64,000 nt of DNA, from assembly GCF_002210425.1 (NCBI RefSeq), contig NZ_MWQK01000005.1, forward strand, positions 124,001 through 188,000, written 5' to 3'. Under the pieces are notes generated by a model. That model worked only from the letters and a program-made list of their open reading frames with translations. It was not told where the DNA came from and did no database searches. Both the position numbers and the translations under genes were made by a program. The stretch comes from Fibrobacter sp. UWB2 (lineage in GTDB: Bacteria > Fibrobacterota > Fibrobacteria > Fibrobacterales > Fibrobacteraceae). Below, piece after piece: positions 26,710 to 54,259 of the stretch; within the stretch, counting starts at the first letter, position 1, and each line of letters starts with the position of its first letter.

Positions 26710-28458
26710 TTAGTTTTTGACGCAGCGAACACTTATGCGTACATCCGGATCATCAGACACATTGTAATCAATCGGCTTCCAGTTATCCATTGTAAGTACC
26801 CATACCGACCACGCACCTTTGTATTCCTGATCTAAAAATGTCATATACTCCACCGTAATATCGCCAAATCCAATCTGGTGCAAATACTGTGAGGCGTACC
26901 ATCCAAAGCCCTCATAAACCTCAAATTGTTCCCTGCAATCCTGAGAATAACATTCACCACTTTCTTTTTCGGCAAAGTAAAATACTCGAGACCATTCCTT
27001 ACGAGTCGGGATATGCCACCCATCCGGGCAAATACCCTGGAAATGCCCATTATCCATTACAATCGAATCGCCACCAATGACGTCAGAAACAGCGTATCCC
27101 GCATAAGTTTCCCAATACGAGGAATCACGCGAATTGATGTATTCTTTAAATTCACCATCGCGGCCCTGATTTTTAACAAAGAAAGCCGAATCAATTCCCA
27201 AAACAGGCTGAACAAGCGAATCGCTATACCTCAGGTTTTCAGCAAGCCAGGTATAAGTTGAATCCTCGAAACTGTACGTCACCGTATTATAGACTTTTCC
27301 ATCGCGAGCATCCGTCATCGTCCCTTTCGTAACAGAGAAAGCCTCTTCAATTTCTTCCGGGGTATTCTTATCCAAAATAGTCCACGCGCCCGAAACACAC
27401 GTAATATCCTTAAACAGCTTTGACTCGCACGGAAGTTCTACAGTACGCCCTTCCGATTTCGCAGTACACGCCCCAAGTTCATAAAGGGTTGCCAAGAAAC
27501 CATCCAAGAATGCGGGATTTCCAGAGCCGGATTTCATACGGACTCGGAACGAATACGCTCTCGCTGCGAAAAAGTCCCTTATCGAATCTACAGACGTAAA
27601 CGTTCCCGACGCCCCAAACACATCAGCAAGTTCAACCGGTGAATTTGTCCGTCTCCAATAAGACGTAAACGCATTCATATAAAGCATCGCAGTTTCATAT
27701 TTAGAATATGCGGGATACCTTCCTTTATCGAAATAAAAACTACCATTAGGCAAGCCAAAAGCACTGAGAATTTCACGATCGGCCTGTTGTTTTGCAGCCG
27801 CGAAGTCCATTCCTTGACGGACAAGATAACGCAAGCGAGCGGCCTCCAAATAAGTCATGATGTTGATATCAACGCCACCAGAATCCCGCACATCAACGAT
27901 TATGCTATACGTTATCGGATACTCTCCCCAAATTTCATCATAGGCATCAAAAGACCATGTTCCGTCCCACGTCCAAGAACCATCTTCAACGTAAGGCGCG
28001 ATTTCAAGCATGACATACGGGCTGTTCAGCGAAACGCTGTCAAAACGGAATTCGCCGTCATAACCGTTGCACTTGGCAAAATAAAACACGCCTGTCGTAT
28101 CCAAAGTCACCGAATCCAATTCAGCCATTCTTATAATCGTACCTTCTTTCGCGGCTACACTCCACGTGTTCATGGCAGAACTATCAACGACTTCAGTACT
28201 TTCAACATTACGAGCTAGCATTTTTGCACCACCCGTCACGTTTATATTCGGAAGCAAAGCCTCAACAGCGGGTTCCTCGGAAGAGCCTCCTAAATAGCTC
28301 GTTTCTTCAGTGGAACCGCCCATAGAGCAGCCTACAACCATCACAGCGAAGAACGTAGCGATAGCAAAGTTCAAGATTATACTCAAGCCCGCAATCAGGA
28401 ACAATCGCAAGTTCGTCTTTTTACAGACAAGTTGTCCGCAATTTTTTGAGTAATTCAT
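26710..28458 (-). CDS. Module 1 FISUMP surface lipoprotein
   Basis: This 582-residue protein starts MNYSKNCGQLVCKK, like two other copies, then a long hydrophobic signal with lipobox VVGCS (cysteine 44). The N-terminal domain contains IRMAELDSVTLDTTGVFYF and LNSPYVMLEIAPYV, a beta-rich region shared by the four copies. The C-terminal third is a FISUMP domain: TMTDARDGKVYNTVTYSFE, YTWLAENLRYSD, GICPDGWHIPTRKEW, ending SVRCVKN. It is translationally coupled to its regulator: a TAG stop lies inside its TAGGAGG ribosome site, 9 bases upstream. It is the most diverged copy. Ligand unknown. Confidence 0.85.
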   Translation of the reverse strand: MNYSKNCGQLVCKKTNLRLFLIAGLSIILNFAIATFFAVMVVGCSMGGSTEETSYLGGSSEEPAVEALLPNINVTGGAKMLARNVESTEVVDSSAMNTWSVAAKEGTIIRMAELDSVTLDTTGVFYFAKCNGYDGEFRFDSVSLNSPYVMLEIAPYVEDGSWTWDGTWSFDAYDEIWGEYPITYSIIVDVRDSGGVDINIMTYLEAARLRYLVRQGMDFAAAKQQADREILSAFGLPNGSFYFDKGRYPAYSKYETAMLYMNAFTSYWRRTNSPVELADVFGASGTFTSVDSIRDFFAARAYSFRVRMKSGSGNPAFLDGFLATLYELGACTAKSEGRTVELPCESKLFKDITCVSGAWTILDKNTPEEIEEAFSVTKGTMTDARDGKVYNTVTYSFEDSTYTWLAENLRYSDSLVQPVLGIDSAFFVKNQGRDGEFKEYINSRDSSYWETYAGYAVSDVIGGDSIVMDNGHFQGICPDGWHIPTRKEWSRVFYFAEKESGECYSQDCREQFEVYEGFGWYASQYLHQIGFGDITVEYMTFLDQEYKGAWSVWVLTMDNWKPIDYNVSDDPDVRISVRCVKN

Positions 28459-28467
28459 GATATCCTC

Positions 28468-29298
28468 CTAACCCTTTTTAACACTCTTTTTTGTCAACGG
28501 GAAAAACTGAACGTTTAGTCGGTAGACCTCGTCCGTTTCGTCATCGCGCGTGGCAATCGCAATGATGCGCTTGCGGAATGCAGCGATTTCCTCAACAATT
28601 TCATCGTAAGCAGATTGCGTGATACCGAGCGTGAGGCCAGAAAAATGGCGTTGATCTTGCGGCACACCTTCAATAGTTTCAAGTGCGAACTCGCCCATCT
28701 GGCGATGCATCCCGCGGACAGCCACAGGAGTCACATCCATAGGTCCTGTCGTTACGGATTTTTCAGTTTGGACATAATTGCCGTTTTCGTCTTTTTGCAA
28801 CAAGTTCGCCTTGATCAAGAAACTCAGCGATTCAGAGACTTCGGCGGCAGTGATTTCCGGGCGGCAGGCTTTGGCAAGCGCAAGCGGTTTTGCGCCAGGC
28901 ATGGCAGGGGCTAGTTCACGGAGTACCGGATTTTTCCAGCTATCAAAATAACGGAAGGAATCTCCCTCAAGAACTCTTACTTTATGGATGTCAGCGATAG
29001 CGAGCATTTTGTTGAAAATGGACTTTTTCTCTTCGTCCGTTTTCGCATGGTCGAACCTGACCATTTCGCAAAAGTAATCCAGTTCGTAATTTGCAAGGCC
29101 CATCGCAGATGCCACTTGACCTGCAGTTTCTTCGCTCAAGTTAGAGCGGCCTTCACTCACGTATTTTAGGAACACCGGCGACGAAAACCCTGCCGCCCGC
29201 GTAAAAGTTTGCCAAGTAAACGCGGATTTTGCCTTTTTCTCGGCGTAATAATCCGCGATGTACTGGTGATAGTTCGTGTACTCTAGTACATCCTTCAT
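28468..29298 (-). CDS. Module 1 TIGR02147-family regulator
   Basis: The 276-residue protein belongs to the Fibrobacter paralogous family TIGR02147 (C-terminal DUF4423). Residues about 25-70 look like an HTH: FTWQTFTRAAGFSSPVFLKY, then VSEGRSNLSEETAG. The central WKNPVLRELAPAMPG and C-terminal GLTLGITQSAYDEIVEEIAAF are near identical in all four copies. Proteins of this type are probably transcription regulators; the signal is unknown. The start at 29298 is supported by GGGAGGATACG before the ATG. Confidence 0.85.
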   Translation of the reverse strand: MKDVLEYTNYHQYIADYYAEKKAKSAFTWQTFTRAAGFSSPVFLKYVSEGRSNLSEETAGQVASAMGLANYELDYFCEMVRFDHAKTDEEKKSIFNKMLAIADIHKVRVLEGDSFRYFDSWKNPVLRELAPAMPGAKPLALAKACRPEITAAEVSESLSFLIKANLLQKDENGNYVQTEKSVTTGPMDVTPVAVRGMHRQMGEFALETIEGVPQDQRHFSGLTLGITQSAYDEIVEEIAAFRKRIIAIATRDDETDEVYRLNVQFFPLTKKSVKKG

Positions 29299-29356
29299 CG
29301 TATCCTCCCAACAAAACAACCTCTTGATCCGAAGACCCGTGTCGTTTCTAATTTGA

Positions 29357-29385
29357 AATATAGCCTACAAAATCTAAAAAGTCAA
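29357..29385 (-). promoter_or_regulatory. Module 1 promoter
   Basis: TTGACT (29380-29385), a 17-base spacer and TATATT (29357-29362). The sequence AAAACTATTG overlapping the -35 is shared by all four modules and may be an operator. Confidence 0.75.
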
Positions 29386-29504
29386 TAGTTTTGTGATAAA
29401 TAATTCACGTTTTTAAAGAAATTTAAGCATTATTATCATTTTTTATAAAAATTAAGCAATTTTAAGGATATAAATAAAATAACTTAACATTCATAAAACA
29501 AGAA

Positions 29505-29534
29505 GGTGATCCCGGCACAAGGCCGGGATGACAG
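29505..29534. repeat. REP-like palindrome
   Basis: ATCCCGGCACAAGGCCGGGAT followed by GACAG, next to the module 2 terminator. The rest of the gap 29299-29610 holds the module 1 promoter and AT-rich DNA; no gene was seen. Confidence 0.65.
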
Positions 29535-29539
29535 AGCAC

Positions 29540-29568
29540 AAAAAGAAGGCGGGGCGAACCCCGTCTTC
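29540..29568 (-). terminator. Terminator of module 2
   Basis: On the minus strand GAAGACGGGG-TTCG-CCCCGCCTTC is followed by a short T run. TTAGGAGGAAAGG precedes it, as in module 3. Confidence 0.85.
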
Positions 29569-29610
29569 CCTTTCCTCCTAACAAATAATTTTTATGCAGT
29601 TTTAAATGGT

Positions 29611-31446
29611 TTAGTTTTTGATGCAGCGGACAGCGGCAGAAGTATTCGGTGCATAAGGGCTATAATTATACCCCTCACTTTCTATTCTTTTCACAAAGGC
29701 ATGCATATCCGCCAACCCTAAACTAAAACCATCAGGTTTCCAATTGAAAATTTCCAATTCATACAAAGGCACATCCGCTAAAACAAACTCGTTAGTGTAC
29801 CCAAAGGTTATGAAATACACAAGACGAAGTTCTTCCTCAATGCTAGCCTGAACCCAGCCTTTCAAATCAAATCCCGTCGCAACAGCATCATAAAGCGCCG
29901 GCAAAACGTCATTTTGATCAACACCATATCGTTCACCCATATTCCGCAACAACGTTTGCCAATCTTCAAATGTCGGGATTCTCCACCCATCCGGGCAAAC
30001 GCCCTGATACGCATTATGATTTGACGGCGTGATATAATCTGTATAATTCCAAGTCCAAGCATTTTGAGAATAATCTCCAAATGGATCTGACTCCGACTTC
30101 GCAAAATACGTTGTATCCCCAAGAGAATCAACAGAATATACCTTCACTTCATCGTCTCCAATATTCATTGCGGCTTTCCACTGATACGCATGTCCATACA
30201 CCCCGCAATCCGCCATTCTATAATCTTCCTGATGGTAGTAGCAGTCGATGCTCCCAGACAAATTCGCTCTTAACGAACTATCAACACTCAAAGATGTGGT
30301 ATCCACAAAATCAAGATTTTCCGCCATCCAAGTTTGCGAGACATCGCCCCAATTATACGTCACCGTCTTATAAGTTTTTCCATCTCGATTATCCGTCATA
30401 GAACCCATGGTATGTTCAATCGTTTTAAATCCCAAAGTCCACTTAGCGGAGCGGCAAACTACAGACACCTTACCTTCAAGGGCATTGATTTCAGCGGCTG
30501 CATTTTCGCGAGCATCCGTACACTGGCCAAGGTCATTCAATCGAGCCATATAGCCAACCTTATAGTCTATCATTTTTTTCGAATTCAAATAATATTGTTC
30601 TCGAATTTCGCCTCGCCCAACAAATAATTTCGGCGGCACCGCATAAACAAGCATAGGATCCATCCCACGAAGATCTTTAAGCATACTAGATTCGCTCATT
30701 CGAACCAGCTCATTCACAAAAGCCAACTCAGAATTTCCGTCGTTTAAATTTTCAAATCCGCCGAAATATTCATATATGCCAAGATTTTCAAGGATTTCAT
30801 GTTCAGCCATTTTACCCGCTTCTGCAAAGGATTTTCCTTCAGCGAAATACTTTTGCAACAACGGCATCTTGGAAGTAGTGAGAGAGCTTACACTTACTTT
30901 TTTCACATCTCTCAAATCCACAACAGCCTTCAACTCCTGCGAAAACATACGACGGTCACGCGAACTATCCACCATGCTTGCCGGCCTAGACGCATTACGC
31001 CCATAGAAAGCTCCACGTTCTCGACAATTTTCTACATAGCACGAATCCAAGGTTTCAATCAGCACATACGGGCTATTTAGAGCTAGCGACTCAAATGCAA
31101 AACGACCACTATCATTATCAACGGTATCCACAAAAGAACGGCCCGTTTTTTCAAGCGTCAACGAATCCAATTCATAAACAGAAACAACCGTTCCCTTAGC
31201 AGCAAACACAGAACCATCGTTCTTCAAAGAATCCTCCGATCCGTTCTCGTCCGCTGTCGACATCAGCAACGCAGGATACACATCGCCCACGCGACCCACC
31301 AAAGCATAGACACCTTGTTCTTCCGTGTAGCCGCCGTCTTGCGCAAGCGGAGAAACGCTAGGTTCATCTGAGCACGCCGCAAACATAAAGGCCAGCAGCA
31401 TAGCCATTTTGCAGGCAACCAGCCCGCTAAACTTAGAGTAATTCAT
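29611..31446 (-). CDS. Module 2 FISUMP surface lipoprotein
   Basis: The 611-residue protein starts MNYSKFSGLVACKMAMLLAF with lipobox FAAC (cysteine 25). Next come GVYALVGRVGDVYPALL, VVSVYELDSLTLEKTGRSF and LNSPYVLIETLDSC, a probable Ig-like or carboxypeptidase-regulatory-like beta domain. A helical segment with KYFAEGKSFAEAGKMAEHEI follows. The FISUMP domain shows TMTDNRDGKTYKTVTYNWGD, QTWMAENLDF, GVCPDGWRIPTFEDW and terminal AAVRCIKN. It follows its regulator by 8 bases with a TAG stop inside TAGGAGG. It is the closest relative of module 4. Confidence 0.87.
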   Translation of the reverse strand: MNYSKFSGLVACKMAMLLAFMFAACSDEPSVSPLAQDGGYTEEQGVYALVGRVGDVYPALLMSTADENGSEDSLKNDGSVFAAKGTVVSVYELDSLTLEKTGRSFVDTVDNDSGRFAFESLALNSPYVLIETLDSCYVENCRERGAFYGRNASRPASMVDSSRDRRMFSQELKAVVDLRDVKKVSVSSLTTSKMPLLQKYFAEGKSFAEAGKMAEHEILENLGIYEYFGGFENLNDGNSELAFVNELVRMSESSMLKDLRGMDPMLVYAVPPKLFVGRGEIREQYYLNSKKMIDYKVGYMARLNDLGQCTDARENAAAEINALEGKVSVVCRSAKWTLGFKTIEHTMGSMTDNRDGKTYKTVTYNWGDVSQTWMAENLDFVDTTSLSVDSSLRANLSGSIDCYYHQEDYRMADCGVYGHAYQWKAAMNIGDDEVKVYSVDSLGDTTYFAKSESDPFGDYSQNAWTWNYTDYITPSNHNAYQGVCPDGWRIPTFEDWQTLLRNMGERYGVDQNDVLPALYDAVATGFDLKGWVQASIEEELRLVYFITFGYTNEFVLADVPLYELEIFNWKPDGFSLGLADMHAFVKRIESEGYNYSPYAPNTSAAVRCIKN

Positions 31447-31454
31447 GTTTCCTC

Positions 31455-32288
31455 CTAACCTTTTTTATTAATACTTTTGTTTGTCATCGGAAAGAGCTGC
31501 ACATTTAAACGGTAGACATCGTCCATACCGTCATCTTGCGTCGCAATCGTAATAATCCTCTTGCGGAATTCAGCTATTTCCTGAACAATTTTTTCGTAGG
31601 CATCGCGCGTGATACCGAGCGTAAGGCCTGAGAAATGGCGTTCATCTTGAGCAACGCCTTCAATGGCTTCCAAAGCAAACTCACCCATCTGGCGATGCAT
31701 TTCGCGAACCGCAATCGGAGTCACCTCCATCGGCCCTGTCGTCACGCCTCTTTCGGTCTGCTTGTAATTTCCGTCTTTATCTTTTTGGAGCAAGCCCGCC
31801 TTGACGAGAAAATTCAACGTTTCCGTCACCTCGGCGGCTGTAATTTCTGGGCGGCAGGCACGGGCAAGCGCAAGCGGCCTTGCACCGGGCATCGCTGGGG
31901 CAAGTTCACGGAGTACCGGATTTTTCCAGCTTTCAAAATAGCGGAATGAATCGCCTTCGATGATTTTCGCCTTGACAGAATCTGCAATTGAAAGCATTTT
32001 GCCAAAAGCGGCCTTTTTCTCGGCATCCGTTTTTGCGTTGTCAAACTTGACCATTTCGCAAAAGTAATCTTGTTCGTAGCCAGCAAGATGCATGGCCTGC
32101 GCCACGCGCAGTGCAGCCGCATCGCTCAAGTTAAGCTTACCTTCGCTAGCATACTTCAGATGAACTGGCGAAGAGAATCCCGCCGCACGCGTGAACTCCT
32201 GCCAAGTGAATGCGGATTTGGCCTTTTTGTCGGCGTAGTAATCCGCAATATACTGACGATAACTAGTGTATTCTAGTATATCTTTCAT
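31455..32288 (-). CDS. Module 2 TIGR02147-family regulator
   Basis: This 277-residue copy starts MKDILEYTSYRQYIADYYAD with a strong ribosome site (TTAGGAGGAAACA). HTH-like region: FTWQEFTRAAGFSSPVHLKY, then ASEGKLNLSDAAAL. It shares WKNPVLRELAPAMPG, ALARACRPEITAAEV and MHRQMGEFALEAIEG with the other copies. Variation is strongest in the HTH region and around residues 85-110, as expected if each copy reads a different site or signal. Confidence 0.85.
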   Translation of the reverse strand: MKDILEYTSYRQYIADYYADKKAKSAFTWQEFTRAAGFSSPVHLKYASEGKLNLSDAAALRVAQAMHLAGYEQDYFCEMVKFDNAKTDAEKKAAFGKMLSIADSVKAKIIEGDSFRYFESWKNPVLRELAPAMPGARPLALARACRPEITAAEVTETLNFLVKAGLLQKDKDGNYKQTERGVTTGPMEVTPIAVREMHRQMGEFALEAIEGVAQDERHFSGLTLGITRDAYEKIVQEIAEFRKRIITIATQDDGMDDVYRLNVQLFPMTNKSINKKG

Positions 32289-32347
32289 TGTTTCCTCCTA
32301 ACGTAAACAGCATCTCGACTTACAGGTCCGTGCCGTTTACAGAATCA

Positions 32348-32376
32348 AATATAAATCACAAATTTTAAAAAGTCAA
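32348..32376 (-). promoter_or_regulatory. Module 2 promoter
   Basis: TTGACT (32371-32376), 17-base spacer, TATATT (32348-32353), preceded by the shared AAAACTATTG. Confidence 0.75.
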
Positions 32377-32493
32377 TAGTTTTATCATAAATTTTTAGCG
32401 TTTTTAGTAAAATTTAAGCAATTTTTATCATTCATTAAAAATTTTAGTCATTTTTCACAATATAAACAAAATAACCATCATTTCTACAAAACG

Positions 32494-32526
32494 AGATGCC
32501 GATCCCGGCACAAGGCCGGGATAACA
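32494..32526. repeat. REP-like palindrome
   Basis: ATCCCGGCACAAGGCCGGGAT followed by AACAA. The gap 32289-32663 also holds the module 2 promoter, the module 3 terminator and a mini-ORF. Confidence 0.65.
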
Positions 32527-32530
32527 ACGC

Positions 32531-32562
32531 AAAAAAAAGAAGGCGGGCCGAAGCCCGTCTTC
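32531..32562 (-). terminator. Terminator of module 3
   Basis: On the minus strand GAAGACGGGC-TTCG-GCCCGCCTTC is followed by eight T. TTAGGAGGAAAAGG precedes it. Confidence 0.88.
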
Positions 32563-32588
32563 CCTTTTCCTCCTAACATAAATAGTCT

Positions 32589-32630
32589 TTATGAGTTCAT
32601 TGCATTTTCTTCCGAAGTACTTCCCATCAT
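32589..32630 (-). CDS. Possible 13-residue mini-ORF after module 3
   Basis: The peptide MMGSTSEENAMNS starts 33 bases after the FISUMP gene, with ribosome site GAGGAGGAACAAA. As after module 1, it is followed by an orphan AGGAGGAAA and the terminator. The two peptides share a small, Ser/Thr- and acid-rich composition but do not align. Confidence 0.3.
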   Translation of the reverse strand: MMGSTSEENAMNS

Positions 32631-32663
32631 TTTGTTCCTCCTCACAATTATTTACAATTCGCT

Positions 32664-34625
32664 TTATTTCTTTATGCAACGAACAAAAGCCGAATAAAAG
32701 TTGTCAACAGGCGTAAAGAACGTCGTCTCTGGACCAACACCAACACCAAGCATGTTCAACGGCATGCCCGCATTTTTTCCATAGAAAGTAAGCGAATAAA
32801 TGGGCGCATCTGCCACAATAAACTGAATCCACCAAGAACTGCTTATAGACATCCATCCAGTCTCTTCCTCGACAAAGATTTCCTCAACGACTTTTTCCAT
32901 TCCAAAACCGGTCGCCTCATCATCGTAAAGGACGACGCCCGATTCAAGAGAATCAACACCATAGGCATCTCCCATAATTTGCAACAACTTTTTCCAATCG
33001 TCCGCCGTGGGAATTCGCCACCCATCAGGGCATACACCTTGATAGTCATCCTTATTTTTATCCGCCATGTATTCGACATAACCATACGACCAATCAGGAC
33101 CCGGCAGATATCTACCACCATACATAGATTGACAAGTTTCTTTCACACTTTTTAGACACTCATCATCATGGTCGTCGCACTTCAACATTTTTTCTTCAAC
33201 ACAGTCCATTACGGAGTCATAATCGCCTGGAATTTTGCGAGACCAGGTATACAAGGTATCACAATGCTGTTGAATCCGATATTGTTCATTCGCGCAAACC
33301 ATATCTTCAGATGGGCACTCTTTTATTTGAGCATCGTAGCATTGCTGTTCCAAGAACAACGTATCGCCATTCGGTTCAACGGCATATACCCTAAAGTCTT
33401 TTTCGCCGATACCCATTGCGCCAATCCACGAATAATAACGGCCATACAATTTACACCACGGATCATAAACCTTACACAACGAATGTCCTGGCAAATTTGC
33501 CTTCAACGCGCTGTCAGCAATCAACGACGTATCCGCGAAATTCAAATTCTCGGCCATCCATGTCTGCGAAACGCCATTCGCATCATACGTCACCGTTTTA
33601 TAAACTGTTCCATCGCGAGGGTCCGTCATTGTGCCTTTTGTATAATCCATCTTTTTAAAGCCCAACGTCCACTTTCCAGAGCGGCAGACAATTGTAATAG
33701 GCGCACCATAATAATCTTCTATAGATTGCATTTCACCTTCACGCGCTTCCGCGCATCGTCCAAATCCATGTTCTTTCGCATAATAACCCACTCGATAATT
33801 GTTCATTTTTTCCGCATTTCGATAAAGGCGTTCAACAGCGCCGCCTCTCTTAGCAATTAATTTGGGCGAAATAAACAACAAGGATTTATAAAATTCATGA
33901 AGATCCATGTGAACTTTAAACGCAGAATAAGGCTGCAAATCACCGACCATTTCTTGTAAAAAAGGCAAATCCGAATTTTCATCGCCACCTTCTTCAAAGG
34001 CACCCAGGCTCTCGTAAACGCCATAACTTTCAAGGATTTCGCTTTCGGCTTTATCGCTTGCAGTAGCCGCATCCATCCCCTCGGCAACATATTTCAACCA
34101 AAGCGGAACTTTCTTGTTCGTCAACGAATTCACGCTGATCTCTTTGATTTTTCGCAAATCAACAATGGCTCTTGCCACTTCCATATATATAACATTATTC
34201 TCTGTTGCATACACGGAATCCCAATCCGCGCGTTGGCGACATGTCGGGCAGCTCAAGGAATCAAACGATCTTTGATTTTCAATCAACACATAAGGGCTTT
34301 GCAAAGAAACATCTTCGAACGAGAAACGACCATCTTTGTTCTTCAACGAATCAGTAAAACTACGGCCAGTTTTAGCAAGCGTCACAGAATCCAATTCAAA
34401 AACAACAACAATCGAGCCTTCTAGTGCAATCAAAGCTTGGCCCGAGACCGCCCCCGATTCCTTTGCACGAAGCATCATTGGAATAACATCGCCAATTCGC
34501 CCATTCAAAACATATGCGGTTTCTTCTTCGGCGCCACCCATCGAGCCAAGTGATTTGTTTTCGTCTGAGCAAGCCGCCAAAAGGAGCGCCATCAGCGCAG
34601 CCAAAGTAATCTTGTTGAAATTCAT
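32664..34625 (-). CDS. Module 3 FISUMP surface lipoprotein
   Basis: This 653-residue copy has a short signal with lipobox LLAAC (cysteine 19). It shares AYVLNGRIGDVIPMML, VVVFELDSVTLAKTGRSF and LQSPYVLIENQRSFD with modules 2 and 4. Its FISUMP domain (TMTDPRDGTVYKTVTYDANG, QTWMAENLNFAD, GVCPDGWRIPTADDW, terminal FVRCIKK) contains an insertion rich in paired cysteines (EKMLKCDDHDDECLKSVKET), as module 4 has at the same place. This is a likely variable ligand-facing loop. It follows its regulator by 9 bases. Confidence 0.86.
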   Translation of the reverse strand: MNFNKITLAALMALLLAACSDENKSLGSMGGAEEETAYVLNGRIGDVIPMMLRAKESGAVSGQALIALEGSIVVVFELDSVTLAKTGRSFTDSLKNKDGRFSFEDVSLQSPYVLIENQRSFDSLSCPTCRQRADWDSVYATENNVIYMEVARAIVDLRKIKEISVNSLTNKKVPLWLKYVAEGMDAATASDKAESEILESYGVYESLGAFEEGGDENSDLPFLQEMVGDLQPYSAFKVHMDLHEFYKSLLFISPKLIAKRGGAVERLYRNAEKMNNYRVGYYAKEHGFGRCAEAREGEMQSIEDYYGAPITIVCRSGKWTLGFKKMDYTKGTMTDPRDGTVYKTVTYDANGVSQTWMAENLNFADTSLIADSALKANLPGHSLCKVYDPWCKLYGRYYSWIGAMGIGEKDFRVYAVEPNGDTLFLEQQCYDAQIKECPSEDMVCANEQYRIQQHCDTLYTWSRKIPGDYDSVMDCVEEKMLKCDDHDDECLKSVKETCQSMYGGRYLPGPDWSYGYVEYMADKNKDDYQGVCPDGWRIPTADDWKKLLQIMGDAYGVDSLESGVVLYDDEATGFGMEKVVEEIFVEEETGWMSISSSWWIQFIVADAPIYSLTFYGKNAGMPLNMLGVGVGPETTFFTPVDNFYSAFVRCIKK

Positions 34626-34634
34626 AGTTTCCTC

Positions 34635-35465
34635 CTAGTCTTTATTAGCACTCTTTTTGGTCATCGGGAAGAACTGCACATTCAGACGGTAGACCTCTTC
34701 CGTTGCAGTTTCACTTGTCGCAATCGCAATGATGTCCTTACGAAATTCGGCAATTCTCTGCACGATTTTTTCGTACGCTTCGCGAGTGATACCAAGCGTA
34801 AGGCCCGAGAAATGACGTTCGTCCTGAGGGACGTTTTCAATGGCGTCGAGTGCAAACTCGCCCATTTGACGATGCAACCCGCGAACGGCGAGCGGTGTAA
34901 ATTCCATCGGGCCAGTGGTCACGACTTTATCGGTTTGAGCGTAGTTCCCATCTTTATCTTTTTGGAGCAAATTCGCCTTGACCAAGAAACTCAGCGATTC
35001 AGAGACTTCGGCAGCGGAAACTTCGGGGCGGCAGGCACGCGCCATCGCCAAAGGCTTTGCGCCAGGCATGGCAGGAGCGAGTTCACGGAGCACCGGATTT
35101 TTCCAGTCTTCAAAAAAGCGGAAGGACTCGCCATCGACGATTTTCGCCTTATGGGACTCTGCAATCGAGACCATCTTGCTGAAAGCAGCGCGCTTATCGG
35201 CATCGTTCTTCGCATGGTCAAACTTGACCATTTCAACAAAGAATTCGCATTCGTAATCGGTGAGATTTATGGAGCGGGCCAAGCGATCGGCCGCAGATTC
35301 GCTCAAGTTGAAGCGACCCTCGCTCACGTATTTAAGGTAGACCGGCGAAGAGAAACCTGTTGTTTTGGCGAACTCCTGCCAAGAAAACGCAGTCTTCGCC
35401 TTTCGATCGGCGTAGTAATCCGCGATATACCGGCGGTAGTCCGTATATTCTAGTATATCTTTCAT
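34635..35465 (-). CDS. Module 3 TIGR02147-family regulator
   Basis: The 276-residue copy starts at 35465 (MKDILEYTDYRRYIADYYAD) after CTAGGAGGAAAA. HTH-like region: FSWQEFAKTTGFSSPVYLKY, then VSEGRFNLSESAADRLA. It retains WKNPVLRELAPAMPG and MGEFALDAIENVPQDERHF. Its promoter is divergent from the GSCFA gene. Confidence 0.85.
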   Translation of the reverse strand: MKDILEYTDYRRYIADYYADRKAKTAFSWQEFAKTTGFSSPVYLKYVSEGRFNLSESAADRLARSINLTDYECEFFVEMVKFDHAKNDADKRAAFSKMVSIAESHKAKIVDGESFRFFEDWKNPVLRELAPAMPGAKPLAMARACRPEVSAAEVSESLSFLVKANLLQKDKDGNYAQTDKVVTTGPMEFTPLAVRGLHRQMGEFALDAIENVPQDERHFSGLTLGITREAYEKIVQRIAEFRKDIIAIATSETATEEVYRLNVQFFPMTKKSANKD

Positions 35466-35517
35466 TTTTCCTCCTAGCAAACAACCTCTTTGTGCCGGTT
35501 CGTTTGTTGTTAATCTA

Positions 35518-35546
35518 AATATAACTCATAAATTTCCAAAAATCAA
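35518..35546 (-). promoter_or_regulatory. Module 3 promoter
   Basis: TTGATT (35541-35546), 17-base spacer, TATATT (35518-35523), preceded by the shared GTAAAACTATTG. Confidence 0.72.
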
Positions 35547-35656
35547 TAGTTTTACAATATGTTTTGCTTATTTTTACAAGAATTTAAAGGATTTTTGATA
35601 CATATACAAAAATTATATAAATCAACAATACGCCAAATATTATAGAAATAACCTAC

Positions 35657-35662
35657 TATATT
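35657..35662 (+). promoter_or_regulatory. Possible leaderless -10 box of the GSCFA gene
   Basis: TATATT ends 6 bases before the ATG at 35669 and no Shine-Dalgarno sequence lies between. No good -35 was seen. Confidence 0.4.
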
Positions 35663-35668
35663 TACTTC

Positions 35669-36667
35669 ATGGACTTTTTCACGAAAATCGATATTCCGGT
35701 TGCCGATTGGCAAATCGACTATAATTCTAAGCTCGCTTTTTTCGGGTCATGCTTTGCAGACAATATTTCGGCGCAGTTTGCATCGCGAAAATTCAACGTT
35801 TTAGCAAATCCGTTCGGAACGGTTTACAATCCGCTTTCGGCGGCGATGCAGATCAAGGCTATTGCGAACGGGAAAAAATTTGGAGGTCCCGAAATTTTTC
35901 AGGACGCACGCGGTCCGTGGCACTGTTGGGATGCGCATAGTTCACTTTCTGCAGCAACACGTGAAGAGTGCATTGCAAAATTGGACGAAGCCACAGCTAA
36001 AGCACATGAGTTTTTGCAGAAAGCCGATACCGTATTTATTACGCTCGGAACTGCGTTTGTGTACTTTTTGAGAGAAAACGGGGTTGCCGTTTCGAATTGC
36101 CATCGGCAAGACCCGAGAATGTTCATCCGCAAAATGATTTCCGTGGACCATGCGGCAGAAGCGCTGAAAAGCATCGTGCATGATTTGCTGAAGTTAAAAA
36201 ATGACCGAATCGGCGAGAATCGCGAATTTCACATTGTCTTTACAGTTTCACCGTTACGGCATTTGAGCGACGGCGCTCACGAAAACACACTTTCAAAAGC
36301 GACATTGCAACTCGCAATAGAAAAGGTCACAAGAGAAATCGTCACAGAGCCCGCGACAACCATCAGTTATTTCCCGAGTTACGAGATTGTGATGGACGAA
36401 CTGCGCGACTACCGCTTTTACGATGACGACATGATTCATTTGTCAAAGACGGCAGAAGGCTACATCTTTGAGCGCATGGCAGAAACGTACTGCAACGAGA
36501 AAACGCGCGAAGATATCCGCAAAGTGGAAAAGTTCATGAAAATGGCAAACCACCGTGTCGTTGACTCGCAATCGCCCGCCTCACGAGAATTCGCACAAAA
36601 GATTATAGCACAAGCCGAAACGCTCGAGAAAGAAATCACTGGGTTACATCTCAATAACGAGAAATAA
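35669..36667 (+). CDS. GSCFA-domain protein
   Basis: The 332-residue protein carries the family signature in KLAFFGSCFADNISAQF, then NPFGTVYNPLSAA. Further on are DTVFITLGTAFVYFLREN and FTVSPLRHLSDGAHEN, with YFPSYEIVMDELRDYRFYDDD then MIHLSK near the end. GSCFA proteins are distant SGNH-hydrolase relatives, mostly of unknown substrate. There is no signal peptide. It is the only plus-strand gene inside the four-module array and has no known tie to it. Confidence 0.85.
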   Translation: MDFFTKIDIPVADWQIDYNSKLAFFGSCFADNISAQFASRKFNVLANPFGTVYNPLSAAMQIKAIANGKKFGGPEIFQDARGPWHCWDAHSSLSAATREECIAKLDEATAKAHEFLQKADTVFITLGTAFVYFLRENGVAVSNCHRQDPRMFIRKMISVDHAAEALKSIVHDLLKLKNDRIGENREFHIVFTVSPLRHLSDGAHENTLSKATLQLAIEKVTREIVTEPATTISYFPSYEIVMDELRDYRFYDDDMIHLSKTAEGYIFERMAETYCNEKTREDIRKVEKFMKMANHRVVDSQSPASREFAQKIIAQAETLEKEITGLHLNNEK

Positions 36668-36668
36668 T

Positions 36669-36698
36669 GGATTCCCTCCCTTACGGTCGAGGATGACG
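36669..36698. repeat. REP-like element (diverged)
   Basis: GGATTCCCTCCCTTACGGTC then GAGGATGACGAG, between the GSCFA gene and the module 4 terminator. Confidence 0.5.
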
Positions 36699-36704
36699 AG
36701 ATGA

Positions 36705-36731
36705 AAAGAAGGCGGGCCGAAGCTCGCCTTC
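36705..36731 (-). terminator. Terminator of module 4
   Basis: On the minus strand GAAGGCGAGC-TTCG-GCCCGCCTTC is followed by TTTTC. It may also end GSCFA transcripts. Confidence 0.8.
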
Positions 36732-36772
36732 CTCTTTCCTCCTAACAGTATTTCCGTTAAGTTTTCATTGGT

Positions 36773-38722
36773 TTAGTTTTTGATGCAGCGGACTGCGAAC
36801 AAGTCAGAGTTAAAAAAGTTGAATCGGACTTTCTTATGGGATGTAGCAGCCAAAAGAGGAGTTTGCTCGCTCTTGCCAACTCGGACAAAACTACCATCTT
36901 GATCCAGAACCGAGGCAAATTCATAGTAACCGTATATTATCATTTTCGGCTCAGGAACTCCCGAACCATAGGATTCCACAACTATTCCTTCAATATCCCC
37001 AAAGCCACTCGCATCAGCGTGCTTTAACAAGACACCTTGACTTGCCATGTTTTCAATCAAGAGATCCCAATCAGCTTTATTGGGGATTCGCCATCCATCT
37101 GGACACACGCCCTGATAAGTTGCAAGTTCCGATTCAGGGATAACACTCGAACTATCAAAATAGATTCCATTTCCATATTTATGGTTGCAATAATCCCACA
37201 ACGTTTCAGCAGTATCTAATTCATAACATTCATCCGCTTCAGTTCTAAAAAGGCAATATTCAATCCTATTACTTTCATCTTCATACGCACGCAAATCAAA
37301 CTCAACCGTCAAGCACCGATCTTCAACAGACTCCGTTTTTAGCATCATGTCCTTACCCAACACACGGTCGTAAACATCGGCATTCAACTTAAGAAAAGAT
37401 TCATCAATATTCATAAACGCAGTCCACTTGTAAAAACGGCCCAGTTTTTCACATGACGGATCGTATTCCCAGCAATTCGTTTTTCCAAGCAAATTCTTTT
37501 TCAAGGTACTATCAACACTTGAAGACACCGTATCCGCAAAATTCAGATTTTCGGCCATCCACGTTTGCGTGACATCACCCCAGTTATACGTAACGGTCTT
37601 ATATGTTTTTCCATCGCGATTGTCCACCATCGTTCCACTTGTGTATGAAGCCTTTTTGGAATCAACCACCCATTTTTTTGACCGGCAGGCGACTGCAAAC
37701 TTGGGCAATTCATAAAATTCACGAATTGCAATAGTATCTACATCGTTTTCACGCAATTCCGTACATTGTCCCAATCCAACCTTATGAGCCAAATAGCCAA
37801 CCTCATATTCGAACAACTTTATTGTATTCAAATAATATTGCTGCATTTCTTCTGACGCAGAGAATCGCGACAAAGGCGCAAAGTAAACTTCTTTATAGAT
37901 CCAGATAAAATCATAACCCAATAATTCATTTTTTATTTCATCTCCACCTCCACGTCCCAAATCGTCAAGTTCAGAAATTTTCAAGTACAATGCCATAACA
38001 TAATTCAATTCTTCATTTTCCAGGTCTTCAAAGCTTCCAAGATCTTCGTAAATGCCTATGTTTTCAAGAATGTCCTGTTCAGCCTTTTTGCTGGCCTCCG
38101 CAAACGACATTCCTTCGGCAAAGTACGCCCGCACTAGCGGGACCTTTTTATTGGACAACGTATTGACGCTTATCTTCTTATACTTTTTCAAGTCAACAAT
38201 AGCGCTCCTCAAAACCGGATATTTTTGCGATCCATATACACTCGCCGCTCCTGTTGAATCAAATTTCGTAGGAAGATAGGTCGTAAAGCCCCACGCACCA
38301 GCACGCTCAAGACAATTATTGGTGATGCAGGAATCAAGCGTTTCAATCAATACATACGGGCTATTCAAGGTAAGGTTTTCGAACGAAAAACGACCATCAT
38401 CATTATCAATCGTATCGACAAACGTACGACCTGTGGCCGCAAGAGATGACGAATTCAGTTCGTAAATAGTCACAACGGTTCCTTTCGCAGCATACAGGGA
38501 ACCTTCATCATTTTGGATATTTGCCGAGCTATTGCCTTCCTTCGCAAGCAACTTGGGATACACATCGCCCACGCGTCCAGACAAGGCATAAACGCCTGTT
38601 TCTTCAACGGTGCCACCGGCAACACCGTTTCCTGAATTTGTTTCCGAGCATGCCGCGAACACAAAGGCGAGCAGCATCGCCATTTTGCAGACAAACTGTC
38701 CGCTAATTTTTGAATAATTCAT
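36773..38722 (-). CDS. Module 4 FISUMP surface lipoprotein
   Basis: The 649-residue copy starts MNYSKISGQFVCKMAMLLAF with lipobox FAAC (cysteine 25), nearly identical to module 2. It contains GVYALSGRVGDVYPKLL, TVVTIYELNSSSLAATGRTF and LNSPYVLIETLDSC, then RAYFAEGMSFAEASKKAEQD. The FISUMP domain has TMVDNRDGKTYKTVTYNWGD, QTWMAENLNFAD, a cysteine-containing insert (RIEYCLFRTEADECYEL), GVCPDGWRIPNKADW and terminal FAVRCIKN. It follows its regulator by 14 bases. Confidence 0.87.
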   Translation of the reverse strand: MNYSKISGQFVCKMAMLLAFVFAACSETNSGNGVAGGTVEETGVYALSGRVGDVYPKLLAKEGNSSANIQNDEGSLYAAKGTVVTIYELNSSSLAATGRTFVDTIDNDDGRFSFENLTLNSPYVLIETLDSCITNNCLERAGAWGFTTYLPTKFDSTGAASVYGSQKYPVLRSAIVDLKKYKKISVNTLSNKKVPLVRAYFAEGMSFAEASKKAEQDILENIGIYEDLGSFEDLENEELNYVMALYLKISELDDLGRGGGDEIKNELLGYDFIWIYKEVYFAPLSRFSASEEMQQYYLNTIKLFEYEVGYLAHKVGLGQCTELRENDVDTIAIREFYELPKFAVACRSKKWVVDSKKASYTSGTMVDNRDGKTYKTVTYNWGDVTQTWMAENLNFADTVSSSVDSTLKKNLLGKTNCWEYDPSCEKLGRFYKWTAFMNIDESFLKLNADVYDRVLGKDMMLKTESVEDRCLTVEFDLRAYEDESNRIEYCLFRTEADECYELDTAETLWDYCNHKYGNGIYFDSSSVIPESELATYQGVCPDGWRIPNKADWDLLIENMASQGVLLKHADASGFGDIEGIVVESYGSGVPEPKMIIYGYYEFASVLDQDGSFVRVGKSEQTPLLAATSHKKVRFNFFNSDLFAVRCIKN

Positions 38723-38736
38723 GGTTTCCTCCTCGT

Positions 38737-39567
38737 TTATTTTTTCAAATCTTGTTTTTGCGTCAGCGGGAAAAGTTGCATATTCAGGCGATAGACTTCG
38801 TCTGTGGCGGCGTTTTTCCGAGCAATGGCGATAACTTTTTTACGGCAATCAGCAATTTCTTGCACGATTTCGTCGTAGCCGTCTTTGGTGATACCAAACG
38901 TGACACCGGAGAAATTTCGTTTATCCTGAGCCACACCCTCGATTGCTTCAAGCGCAAGCTCTCCCATTTGGCGGTGCATTGTACGGACGGCCAACGGAGT
39001 CACTTCCATGCGGCCCGTTGTCAAGGATTTATCAGTTTGTACGTAATTGCCTTCGTCATTTTTTTCAAGGAATCCGCCCTTGACGAGGAAGTTCAGCACA
39101 TCGCTGACTTCGGCGGCGGTAATTTCTGGGCGGCAGGCATGGGCAAGTGCAAGCGGCTTTGCACCAGGCATTGATGGCGCAAGTTCTCGAATGACAGGAT
39201 TTTTCCAACTTTCGAAAAAGCGGAACGAATCGCCTTCCAAGATTTTAGCCTTGTGGGAGTCCGCAATTGCAAGCATTTTGTTGAATGCTGCCTTCTTTTC
39301 GGCATCCGTTTTGGCATGGTCAAACTTGACCATTTCAGTGAAATATTCGCGTTCGTAATCGACCAAGCGCATGGCATCAGCTACGCGGGCTGTCGCCGTT
39401 TCGCTCAAGTTAAAGCGGCCTTCGCTCACGTATTTCAGATAAACACGCGAAGAAAAACCAGCTTCGGTAGCGAACGTCTGCCAGGTAAACGCAGAACTCG
39501 CCTTTTTGTCGGCGTAGTAGTCCGCAATATACTGGCGATAGCTCGTATATTCTAGTATTTCTTTCAT
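38737..39567 (-). CDS. Module 4 TIGR02147-family regulator
   Basis: The 276-residue copy starts MKEILEYTSYRQYIADYYAD after TAAGGAGGAAAA. HTH-like region: FTWQTFATEAGFSSRVYLKY, then VSEGRFNLSETATAR. It differs from the others in the C-terminal half (LNFLVKGGFLEKNDEGNYVQ), fitting an independent signal. It ends with a TAA rather than the TAG-in-ribosome-site junction seen in modules 1-3. Confidence 0.85.
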   Translation of the reverse strand: MKEILEYTSYRQYIADYYADKKASSAFTWQTFATEAGFSSRVYLKYVSEGRFNLSETATARVADAMRLVDYEREYFTEMVKFDHAKTDAEKKAAFNKMLAIADSHKAKILEGDSFRFFESWKNPVIRELAPSMPGAKPLALAHACRPEITAAEVSDVLNFLVKGGFLEKNDEGNYVQTDKSLTTGRMEVTPLAVRTMHRQMGELALEAIEGVAQDKRNFSGVTFGITKDGYDEIVQEIADCRKKVIAIARKNAATDEVYRLNMQLFPLTQKQDLKK

Positions 39568-48687: not shown

Positions 48688-49173
48688 CTAATAAATCTTT
48701 TTCATGTCGGTGAGGTGGCCTTCTTTTTCGTGGAAGAGCGTGAGCGAGCCACCCTGGATTTTCTGGAAAATCTTGGTGAGCTTTTCAACGGCGATAGCCT
48801 CTTCAAAGCCAACTTCGTTATAAGCGGTTTCGCCAATCACGATGCCCACGTTCATCATGTCCGGAGCCTTGCGGCGCAGATAGCTCAAGAATTCTTCATC
48901 GCTGTTAATGACATCCGTCGGCGTCAACTTTTCGAATTCCGACGGATCGCGCGTACTCGCTTCTAGCGGGAACATTTCGTCGGCAACGATCTGCCTAGAG
49001 TTCAGATAAAAAACGTTACCAACATACAAACTAATAGAATCATTCAGCACCTGACGCACTTCGATCAGGACATCGCTCATAGACGATGCTTCCTGAATTT
49101 CAATTTTAGAAGGAGCGCAAGCCATAAAGGCAAGCGAGATTGCGGCTAGAGCCGTAAGGAAAAGTTTTTTCAT
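48688..49173 (-). CDS. Lipoprotein of unknown function
   Basis: The 161-residue protein has a signal peptide with lipobox AFMAC. No known domain was recognised; the rest is mixed alpha/beta with no cysteines. TRDPSEFEKLTPTDVINSDE and GIVIGETAYNEVGFEEAIAV are the most distinctive stretches. It is a single gene between alaS and the GH16 gene. A possible -10 (TATATT) lies about 17 bases before the ATG. Confidence 0.72.
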   Translation of the reverse strand: MKKLFLTALAAISLAFMACAPSKIEIQEASSMSDVLIEVRQVLNDSISLYVGNVFYLNSRQIVADEMFPLEASTRDPSEFEKLTPTDVINSDEEFLSYLRRKAPDMMNVGIVIGETAYNEVGFEEAIAVEKLTKIFQKIQGGSLTLFHEKEGHLTDMKKIY

Positions 49174-49237: not shown

Positions 49238-49272
49238 TAAAAAAAGCCCCCCAGATTTCTCCGGGAGGCTTA
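49238..49272 (-). terminator. GH16 gene terminator
   Basis: On the minus strand GCCTCCC pairs with GGGGGGC around GGAGAAATCT, followed by seven T. Confidence 0.8.
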
Positions 49273-49291: not shown

Positions 49292-50299
49292 TTAGTTAGC
49301 TTCGTAGTCCAAGATGAGGCGGCAAACACCGTTTTCGACGAGGACATTGTCCGGGCGGAGGTTCACGCGTTCCATTTCCCAGTTGCCACGGTCCCAATGT
49401 TCTGGATCCAAGTCTTCACCATTGAAGTCATCCTGCCAGAGCATCGTGAAACCCTTCGTTGCAGCATCGTAAGAGTAAACGCGGACGTAGTCAATCTGCT
49501 GTTCAACCGGAAGACCGATACCGCCTGCCCACTTGCCAGTCCATGCGGCGCTCTTGGAGGCCCAGAGATTGAAGCGGAGAGACTGGTCTTCAGTCAAGAA
49601 TGCAACCTGGTCAGCATCGGCGTGAGTACCACGGCTGAGACCAATTTCATCACGACGGACTTCGACGCTGTCGATTTCCCAGGACACGTATTCCGGAGTC
49701 CAGACGATAGCGTAAAGGTGGAAATCCTGCGTGGCATCAAAGCCGAATTCATGAAGCGGCTTGCTTTCGGAAGAGGTGTTGGCCTTGATAGAGGGGTCAC
49801 CTTCGCGAGTGATGATGTTGGACTGCCACTTGTCTGCGGCCTTGCCCAAAACTTCAATATCAATTTCGTTCCACGGCTTTTCACCCTTTTCCCAGGAGTC
49901 ATCGTAGTAAACGAACATGGAGCTCACGGAACCAGAGATGGCAGCCATCTTCATGCGGGCTTCGAAACGGCCATACTTGAACTGATCCTTACCGGTAAGT
50001 TCAGCACCGTAGAAGGAGTATTCCTTCGTCGGGTCAAGTTCAGTAAGCGTCGGCACGGCATAAGTGAACTGAGCGGCGCCATTCGAGCTAGAAGAAACAG
50101 CCGGAAGAGCGTCAACCGAGCTAGAAGAAAGGTCTGTCGGCAAAAGCGTTGCATCAGAGCTCGACTGTCCTGCAACCGGAGTAGCCTCGGAGCTGGAAGA
50201 TGCACCCGCAACCGGAGCGGCCGGGAAAGCATTGTCGTTAGTATCGGAGCAAGCGGCGAAGAATGCCATTGCAACCATAGGGATGAGAATCTTTTTCAT
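49292..50299 (-). CDS. Circularly permuted GH16 beta-glucanase lipoprotein
   Basis: The 335-residue protein starts at 50299 with lipobox FAAC (cysteine 17) and a Ser-rich linker of about 55 residues. The catalytic GH16 motif is EIDIE (glutamates 145 and 149) in PWNEIDIEVLGK. FGRFEARMKMAA-like, SSMFVYYDD and LRFNLWASKSAAWTGKW closely resemble the F. succinogenes 1,3-1,4-beta-glucanase. The strand block usually found at the N-terminus of GH16 (DDFNGEDLDPEHWDRGNWE, NVLVENGVCRLIL) is at the C-terminus, the known circular permutation of that enzyme. It probably cuts mixed-linkage glucans at the cell surface. It lacks the long C-terminal tail of the secreted lichenase. Confidence 0.9.
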   Translation of the reverse strand: MKKILIPMVAMAFFAACSDTNDNAFPAAPVAGASSSSEATPVAGQSSSDATLLPTDLSSSSVDALPAVSSSSNGAAQFTYAVPTLTELDPTKEYSFYGAELTGKDQFKYGRFEARMKMAAISGSVSSMFVYYDDSWEKGEKPWNEIDIEVLGKAADKWQSNIITREGDPSIKANTSSESKPLHEFGFDATQDFHLYAIVWTPEYVSWEIDSVEVRRDEIGLSRGTHADADQVAFLTEDQSLRFNLWASKSAAWTGKWAGGIGLPVEQQIDYVRVYSYDAATKGFTMLWQDDFNGEDLDPEHWDRGNWEMERVNLRPDNVLVENGVCRLILDYEAN

Positions 50300-50512
50300 A
50301 ATAACCTCGTTCTTTCTGTTCATAAGATAGCTTCTGTTCGAGCATGAAGCACGCGTGTCGAGAGGCATTTTAAAACTAACTGTATCATCCGTATTTTACA
50401 CATTTTTGCAACAATTTTACATAAAAAACCGACTTTTTCAAAAATTGGTCATGTAAGCTTTGCGTAAGCATTTTGAGGAGTCACTTTTGATTAATTTGGT
50501 GCATTTTATACC

Positions 50513-53770: not shown

Positions 53771-54259
53771 TTATTCCTGTTCTTTATAAACAATATCGTA
53801 AACACCATTGAAATTTAGATATTTCACGCCAATATACTCCGCAGGAACTTTAATTCTATAATCAGCAAAACAGAGGCAATTATACTTAGGCACTTGCGGA
53901 TCGTCTGGATAATATTCGAAAAAATCATGAACAAATAAAGAGTCTTCCTTACGTTCCAATTTGACATCTGTTACATGCCCATATTCTCCACAAACCGATG
54001 TTGTATTAATCGTAAAGGTTGCAGAACCATCTTCGTTCATCACGAAATCAACAGATTCATCACCCCATTCAGCTCTTTTTTCCAAATGCCCGCCACCACA
54101 AGAGCCCACGCCCACCTCATAATCAGAGGATTTTTGAGATTCCGTGTTTAAGCCTGCAGAACCGCCAGCGCCATTATCCACGCCAGAATCATCTGAACAA
54201 GCGGCAAGCATCACAAAAGCAACAACTGCCGCAATCGAAACAAATAATGATTTCTTCAT
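53771..54259 (-). CDS. Lipoprotein of unknown function
   Basis: The 162-residue protein has a signal with lipobox MLAAC and an acidic, Gly/Ser-rich linker. The mature part has four cysteines (VGSCGGGHL, TSVCGEYG, YNCLCFADY), likely disulfide bonded. No domain was recognised. A strong ribosome site (GAGGAGGAAATC) precedes the start. It is divergent from pflA. Confidence 0.72.
   Translation of the reverse strand: MKKSLFVSIAAVVAFVMLAACSDDSGVDNGAGGSAGLNTESQKSSDYEVGVGSCGGGHLEKRAEWGDESVDFVMNEDGSATFTINTTSVCGEYGHVTDVKLERKEDSLFVHDFFEYYPDDPQVPKYNCLCFADYRIKVPAEYIGVKYLNFNGVYDIVYKEQE

Follow-up and report, generated by a model that had tools for sequence, protein, structure and literature searches.

A predicted lipid-anchored branch of the circularly permuted GH16 glucanases in Fibrobacter, represented by P0001 of Fibrobacter sp. 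UWB2

The lichenase of F. succinogenes (structures 1MVE and 1ZM1) is a glycoside hydrolase family 16 (GH16) enzyme with a circularly permuted jelly roll. A gene on the minus strand of a 64,000-nucleotide stretch of Fibrobacter sp. UWB2 (contig NZ_MWQK01000005.1, positions 124,001 to 188,000; the whole stretch is called the window) encodes a protein, P0001, which shares with this lichenase and with its copy in the same genome (L002) the permuted fold, the ExDxE motif, the cleft Phe and Trp and a colinear domain. The leader of the lichenase lacks a lipobox and its C-terminus extends into a Ser-rich and basic tail, whereas P0001 has a lipobox, an N-terminal linker and longer loops and is tail-free. 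The same kind of re-ordering was made in engineered Bacillus glucanase permutants (1CPM, 1CPN, 1AJK), of which 1CPM and 1CPN start at nearly the same point; these are laboratory products and, unlike P0001, have neither leader nor anchor. Two Bacteroides enzymes, BACOVA_02741 of B. ovatus and BuGH16 of B. uniformis, have the canonical GH16 order, unlike P0001. BACOVA_02741 is reported as a surface GH16 enzyme acting on mixed-linkage glucan, encoded in a polysaccharide utilization locus together with a TonB-dependent transporter and surface glycan-binding proteins (PMC8612152), none of which was seen next to P0001, while BuGH16 is a GH16 endo-glucanase for which a surface location was predicted from N-terminal Cys lipidation (PMC7157763). 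The enzyme type of P0001 is already known; neither a lipoprotein form of the permuted enzyme nor the lipid-anchored branch was found described in the literature searched (open-access papers, without supplements).

The gene and its parts are as follows.

49292..50299, minus strand: coding sequence of the permuted GH16 predicted lipoprotein P0001, 335 amino acids, with the ATG at 50299 and the stop at 49292.
50249..50299, minus strand: predicted lipoprotein signal peptide MKKILIPMVAMAFFAAC, with Cys17 as the predicted lipidation site; the lipobox recurs in orthologues.
50024..50248, minus strand: residues 18-92, the predicted mature N-terminus SDTND followed by a Ser/Thr-rich linker.
49466..50023, minus strand: residues 93-278, the first part of the permuted GH16 domain, equivalent to the later part of canonical GH16.
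49853..49867, minus strand: catalytic motif EIDIE (E145-E149) of the ExDxE type, with E, D and E invariant in orthologues and comparison enzymes.
49295..49465, minus strand: residues 279-335, the second part of the domain, equivalent to the canonical GH16 N-terminal segment, and the tail-free C-terminal end.

The Pfam scan of P0001 gave GH16 only (PF00722, 85.1 bits against a curated cut-off of 22, E 5e-24), and neither a carbohydrate-binding module nor a type IX sorting domain (PF18962/TIGR04183) was found. Residues 95-330 matched residues 6-228 of 1MVE in a single colinear alignment (E 3e-45). A profile of the last ~57 residues, built from 18 permuted enzymes and used as the C-terminal half-query, matched the start of canonical GH16 chains (9efl 59-104, E 4e-8; 4awd 52-99, E 3e-4; 3wvj 12-54, E 7e-4), and the first-part half-query matched downstream of that (3wvj 59-214). 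Profile A4 (232 positions) covered L001, the P0001 gene, and the lichenase copy L002 of the same genome in one run (2-231); on the canonical enzyme of contig 2 it fell into two pieces in swapped order (180-227 before 11-177). Based on these three comparisons, the canonical N-terminal segment is confirmed to be relocated to the C-terminal side of the P0001 domain, as in 1MVE, and the permuted order recognized in the initial annotation was borne out.

The fold search pointed the same way. Its best matches were the natural permutants (VIA Z 19.6-19.9, residues 93-334; 19.8-19.9 for 1MVE/1ZM1), followed by engineered permutants (Z 17.3-17.7; 17.3-17.6 for 1CPM/1CPN), while the canonical GH16 chains among the matches shown had Z values of ~10 and ended at model residues 276-300. 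An unpermuted fold model, which the initial annotation had named as refuting its reading, was therefore not obtained. The B. ovatus GH16 structures 5nbo and 7kr6, which are probably those of BACOVA_02741, were also among the matches. Two points weigh against this result: the full-length AlphaFold model used for the search was weak (mean predicted local distance difference test score 55.9, ten-residue blocks up to 84) and that of the domain by itself poorer (mean 39.2), and some unrelated jelly-roll proteins (Z up to 12.6) outscored canonical GH16. As a separate observation made by eye, several tail-bearing enzymes, including L002, carry after the domain an ESFNGQVP-type stretch that resembles the domain start DFSGAEL and that is absent from the lipoprotein branch; it could be the leftover of a tandem duplication behind the permutation.

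The leader of P0001 has a positively charged n-region and a hydrophobic core and ends in the lipobox MAFFAAC17, the features expected of a lipoprotein. A strict lipobox pattern fitted 74 of the 77 branch members and a loose one all 77, while of the 52 enzymes used for comparison either pattern fitted L131 alone, whose leader looks like an ordinary signal peptide. The same two patterns were run on both sets, and by this sequence comparison the lipobox is not a chance feature; lipidation of P0001 at Cys17 is well supported as a prediction. The linker (residues 18-92, 75 residues) contains 16 Ser and 8 Thr, with Ser runs at 34-37, 46-48, 58-61 and 69-72; a tandem-repeat search of the gene found no array, and hence the linker is Ser-rich and not a DNA tandem repeat. 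The domain of P0001 runs to its C-terminus, and the residues that follow the domain number 0-7 in all 77 branch members versus 23-189 in the 52 comparison enzymes. Six of these 52 tails, among them those of both members of the sister group (G048/G068), were picked by eye; all six had the type IX sorting tail PF18962 as their top Pfam hit, which passed the cut-off in two and stayed below it in four. The tail-bearing paralogue in the same genome, L002 (350 amino acids), has a C-terminal Ser-rich tail. The initial annotation had thus been right to see a lipoprotein paralogue of the secreted lichenase in which an N-terminal Ser-rich tether replaces the C-terminal tail. A C-terminal basic domain in F. 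succinogenes S85 has been proposed as a type IX signal leading to the surface (PMC6851124). The simplest and most likely reading is that an enzyme once routed by its tail exchanged it for a lipid anchor, although we infer the direction of this swap.

The 77 branch members form one clade in a quick tree that also included the 52 other sequences (Shimodaira-Hasegawa-like approximate likelihood ratio test, 100), and branch support was 100/100 in a careful tree of 35 sequences, five of them from the branch. These counts leave out duplicates (L008-L019, L051, L052), the non-permuted L020 and L021, and two fragments (the first frame of L144 and the second frame of L147); the 52 comparison sequences, from 49 loci, are a sample in which tail-bearing paralogues were taken from part of the genomes only. 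A GH16 match to P0001 was present in 80 of 80 Fibrobacter genomes and a member of the lipoprotein branch in 75. Of the five genomes without one, G009 is 99% complete, while G023, G048, G060 and G068 are only 71-81% complete, and in these four the missing member may be an assembly gap. Two branch members, L122 in G140 and L126 in G150, belong to other genera of the same family yet are nested among the Fibrobacter members, a placement suggestive of transfer or of a misdrawn genus boundary.

The permuted order itself extends beyond the genus. In a phylum-wide search, 126 of 167 Fibrobacterota genomes matched the lichenase, not all of them necessarily with a permuted enzyme; in the sequences from families f1, f4, f5 and f7 both segments were found in permuted order, except in two fragments. 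Two phyla were sampled outside Fibrobacterota. None of the 21 Actinomycetota genomes with a match (396 searched) reached the end of A4, the furthest stopping at position 193 of 232. Three of the 43 Pseudomonadota genomes with a match (398 searched) did reach it (230-231 of 232; the next stopped at 191), which rules out that the permuted order is confined to Fibrobacterota. The Pseudomonadota enzymes (L238, L239 and L237 in G948, G806 and G749) occupy two separate places in the tree. The L239 protein reads as a lipoprotein (ALVTTAC) and ends at the domain, and would be a second, independent case. An A4 scan of viral contigs found no relative. In each of G030, G031 and G165 two permuted GH16 genes are adjacent, while G164 has two within ~5 kb (loci L103, L106, L143 and L144).

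Our proposed explanation is that P0001, a circularly permuted licheninase-type GH16 endo-glucanase, would be exported by Sec, lipidated at Cys17 and retained at the outer membrane, most likely facing outward, through its flexible Ser/Thr-rich linker. It would cut the beta-1,4 bonds beside beta-1,3 kinks in the mixed-linkage glucan of grass cell walls and contribute to stripping this hemicellulose near the attached cell. The branch would have originated from a Fibrobacter-type permuted enzyme that was sorted by a C-terminal tail (type IX or basic), lost this tail and gained the N-terminal lipid anchor. Taken as a whole, from export to the tail-to-lipid swap, we judge this account somewhat more probable than its failure in one or another part.

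The protein had initially been described as surface-tethered. The predicted lipid tether stands; surface exposure does not follow from it, because a lipobox by itself would suit an anchor facing the periplasm as well and leaves the orientation unset. P0001 might then be a periplasm-facing lipoprotein of the outer or inner membrane which trims imported mixed-linkage gluco-oligosaccharides before phosphorolysis, and the weak acidic start CSDTND and a Ser/Thr-rich linker that would be equally useful inside agree with this; an endo-acting enzyme would presumably be of little use on short imported products, and the nearest relatives have type IX-like tails, for which the surface is the proposed destination (PMC6851124).

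The residues after the Cys bear on this alternative. Surface lipoproteins of Bacteroidota are reported to carry an acidic signal at this place; the proposed export consensus is SDDDD in B. fragilis and SDDFE in F. johnsoniae, and each proved functional in C. canimorsus (PMC5080379). In the glucanase branch one to three acidic residues occur at +2 to +6 in 77/77, and an adjacent acidic pair at +3/+4 (CSDD type) in 51/77. BamD and LptE face the periplasm. Among the BamD-type lipoproteins of the genus (21 loci, 18 parsed), 15 were free of acidic residues from +2 to +6 and 17 lacked the CSDD-type start. The LptE-type lipoproteins (18 loci, 13 of them parsed and L182 added by eye) begin CYSFTAST, with no acidic residue. 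These differences argue against a periplasm-facing enzyme, which we consider unlikely.

Several observations weigh against outward display. P0001 itself starts with CSDTND, which has no adjacent acidic pair; one BamD-type protein has SDD (L163); and the start CGEAQK of a redoxin/FKBP-type lipoprotein, which probably resides in the periplasm, includes a single acidic residue. Among Fibrobacter lipoprotein candidates, acidic starts occur often (D at +3 in 15/25 and at +4 in 15/25; the 25 are non-independent and include three branch members and at least one false hit). No test or definition of a lipoprotein export signal for Fibrobacterota was found in the literature searched. In a fractionation of S85 the GH16 protein Fisuc_2424 was reported in the extracellular medium, and another GH16 protein of S85 with a basic tail, FSU_2986, was reported to be less abundant in the envelope on cellulose; neither tag is mappable to P0001, and no S85 proteomics record could be tied to the P0001 gene. 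With both sides considered, outward display of the enzyme is in our judgement probable.

An acidic start as the mark of every Fibrobacter lipoprotein was also considered. The BamD- and LptE-type proteins argue against it, and a function-blind sample (the window and 20 stretches of the same genome; 23 pattern matches, several of them false) was mixed and leaves only a hint, with the starts CSDDDS, CGDDPL and CSGEDG but also CNQASA, CGEAQK and CQSENQ. An OmpA-family search of the same genome gave one parsed lipoprotein among 11 loci, with the start CGDKKS. Only tentatively, as a possibility and not as the expected outcome, we suggest that an acidic CSDD-type start might direct lipoproteins to the surface in Fibrobacterota, in the way known from Bacteroidota, and that the glucanase branch might have exchanged a type IX-type tail for that route, which would place the same kind of catalyst on two surface anchors.

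Action of P0001 on mixed-linkage glucan would be in keeping with its active site. E145, D147 and E149 are invariant in 77/77 orthologues and 52/52 comparison enzymes, and F129, W143, Q159, N161, R242, N244, W246, W253, W288, W302 and W307 are likewise invariant in 77/77 orthologues. Licheninases (GH16_21) have ExDxE, a Phe platform at subsite -1 and a Trp at +1, and in mixed-linkage glucan the beta-1,4 bond is the only one that they hydrolyse (PMC6827312). P0001 has ExDxE without a bulge together with F129 and W253, all kept in 77/77. The placing of these residues in the -1 and +1 subsites follows partly a numbering that we take to apply here. Formal filing under GH16_21 was withheld because the P0001 domain, with ~242 residues (93-334), is longer than the usual ~210 residues with short loops. 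Capture of glucan fragments, the role first suggested for the protein, found no support in the Pfam domain content or in the neighbouring genes; the catalytic residues are kept, and the enzyme would therefore be cutting rather than holding.

The same fold and anchor could also serve another substrate, such as xyloglucan or another beta-glucan, in which case the two permuted paralogues would split substrates and not places. P0001 is 43-46% identical to the lichenase, and the lipoprotein branch has clade-specific residues (N144, M309 and a mixed Y/N131). Counting against a mixed-linkage specificity are two loops around residues 165-235 that exceed their lichenase counterparts in length (1MVE alignment) and Tyr131, a position that is Tyr in 47/52 comparison enzymes but Asn in 23/77 orthologues; therefore the substrate may differ from that of the lichenase. 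Other ExDxE enzymes of GH16 act on xyloglucan, and the ExDxE motif separates P0001 from the ExDxxE enzymes, which occupy the opposite part of the GH16 tree (PMC6827312). With the catalytic residues and the licheninase-typical Phe and Trp invariant throughout the branch, we regard a different substrate as distinctly improbable. F. succinogenes has been reported unable to use the products of its own endo-hemicellulases, whose proposed use is the baring of cellulose (PMC3079729), and a tethered mixed-linkage glucanase would fit such a role.

That the lipobox is fortuitous and P0001 an ordinary secreted lichenase paralogue freed by signal peptidase I is very improbable: the Phe at -3 is loose by E. 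coli standards, but the lipobox Cys follows the leader in every orthologue despite linkers of 36-135 residues, is preceded by FAA or LAA in 38/77, and the same patterns fit almost none of the comparison enzymes.

On one side of P0001 lie alaS and the gene of a small lipoprotein, on the other the divergent pflB, and no utilisation locus, transporter or glycan-binding protein was found among these neighbours. In the related loci (n=12) the small lipoprotein and pflB were both kept beside the glucanase in eight (L008-L015), and alaS was present in 11, L013 being without alaS in the stretch examined. The small lipoprotein-like protein (48688-49173 of the window, minus strand, 161 amino acids, CAPSKIE) gave a weak, below-cut-off match to a family named PG1828 lipoprotein. 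A second lipoprotein-like protein, with the acidic start CSDDSG (53771-54259, minus strand, 162 amino acids), lies between pflB and pflA and had no Pfam or NCBIfam match at the thresholds used. Further away, positions 26710-39567 (minus strand) hold four tandem pairs of a FISUMP-domain (TIGR02145/PF09603) lipoprotein-like protein and a TIGR02147-type protein; the family of the latter was tested on a single member, all four share 69-76% identity, and the FISUMP partners are 26-44% identical over their long alignments. Two putative expression signals accompany the gene.

50305..50308, minus strand: ribosome-binding-site-like GAGG motif 5' of the ATG, read directly from the sequence.
49244..49271, minus strand: intrinsic-terminator-like hairpin of 12 pairs followed by a T run, directly 3' of the stop.

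Terminator-like sites in the region numbered three versus 2.5 expected by shuffling, a count that is not significant by itself; from its position and length, the hairpin is a plausible terminator.

Fibrobacter is a main rumen fibre degrader, and one published model has its enzymes retained at the fibre through C-terminal tails of the basic or type IX kind (PMC6851124). Beyond what the initial annotation had offered, an anchor-swapped branch is retained across nearly the whole genus, and the presence of the same kind of catalyst on a predicted lipid anchor in so many of the genomes points to a second retention route. The lipoprotein and its tail-bearing paralogue form a clean pair with the same fold and different anchors. 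The contrast after the Cys between the branch and the BamD/LptE-type proteins offers a direct test of a lipoprotein export signal in Fibrobacterota. The permuted order itself reaches beyond a single enzyme, being found in several Fibrobacterota families and in a few of the Pseudomonadota genomes sampled.
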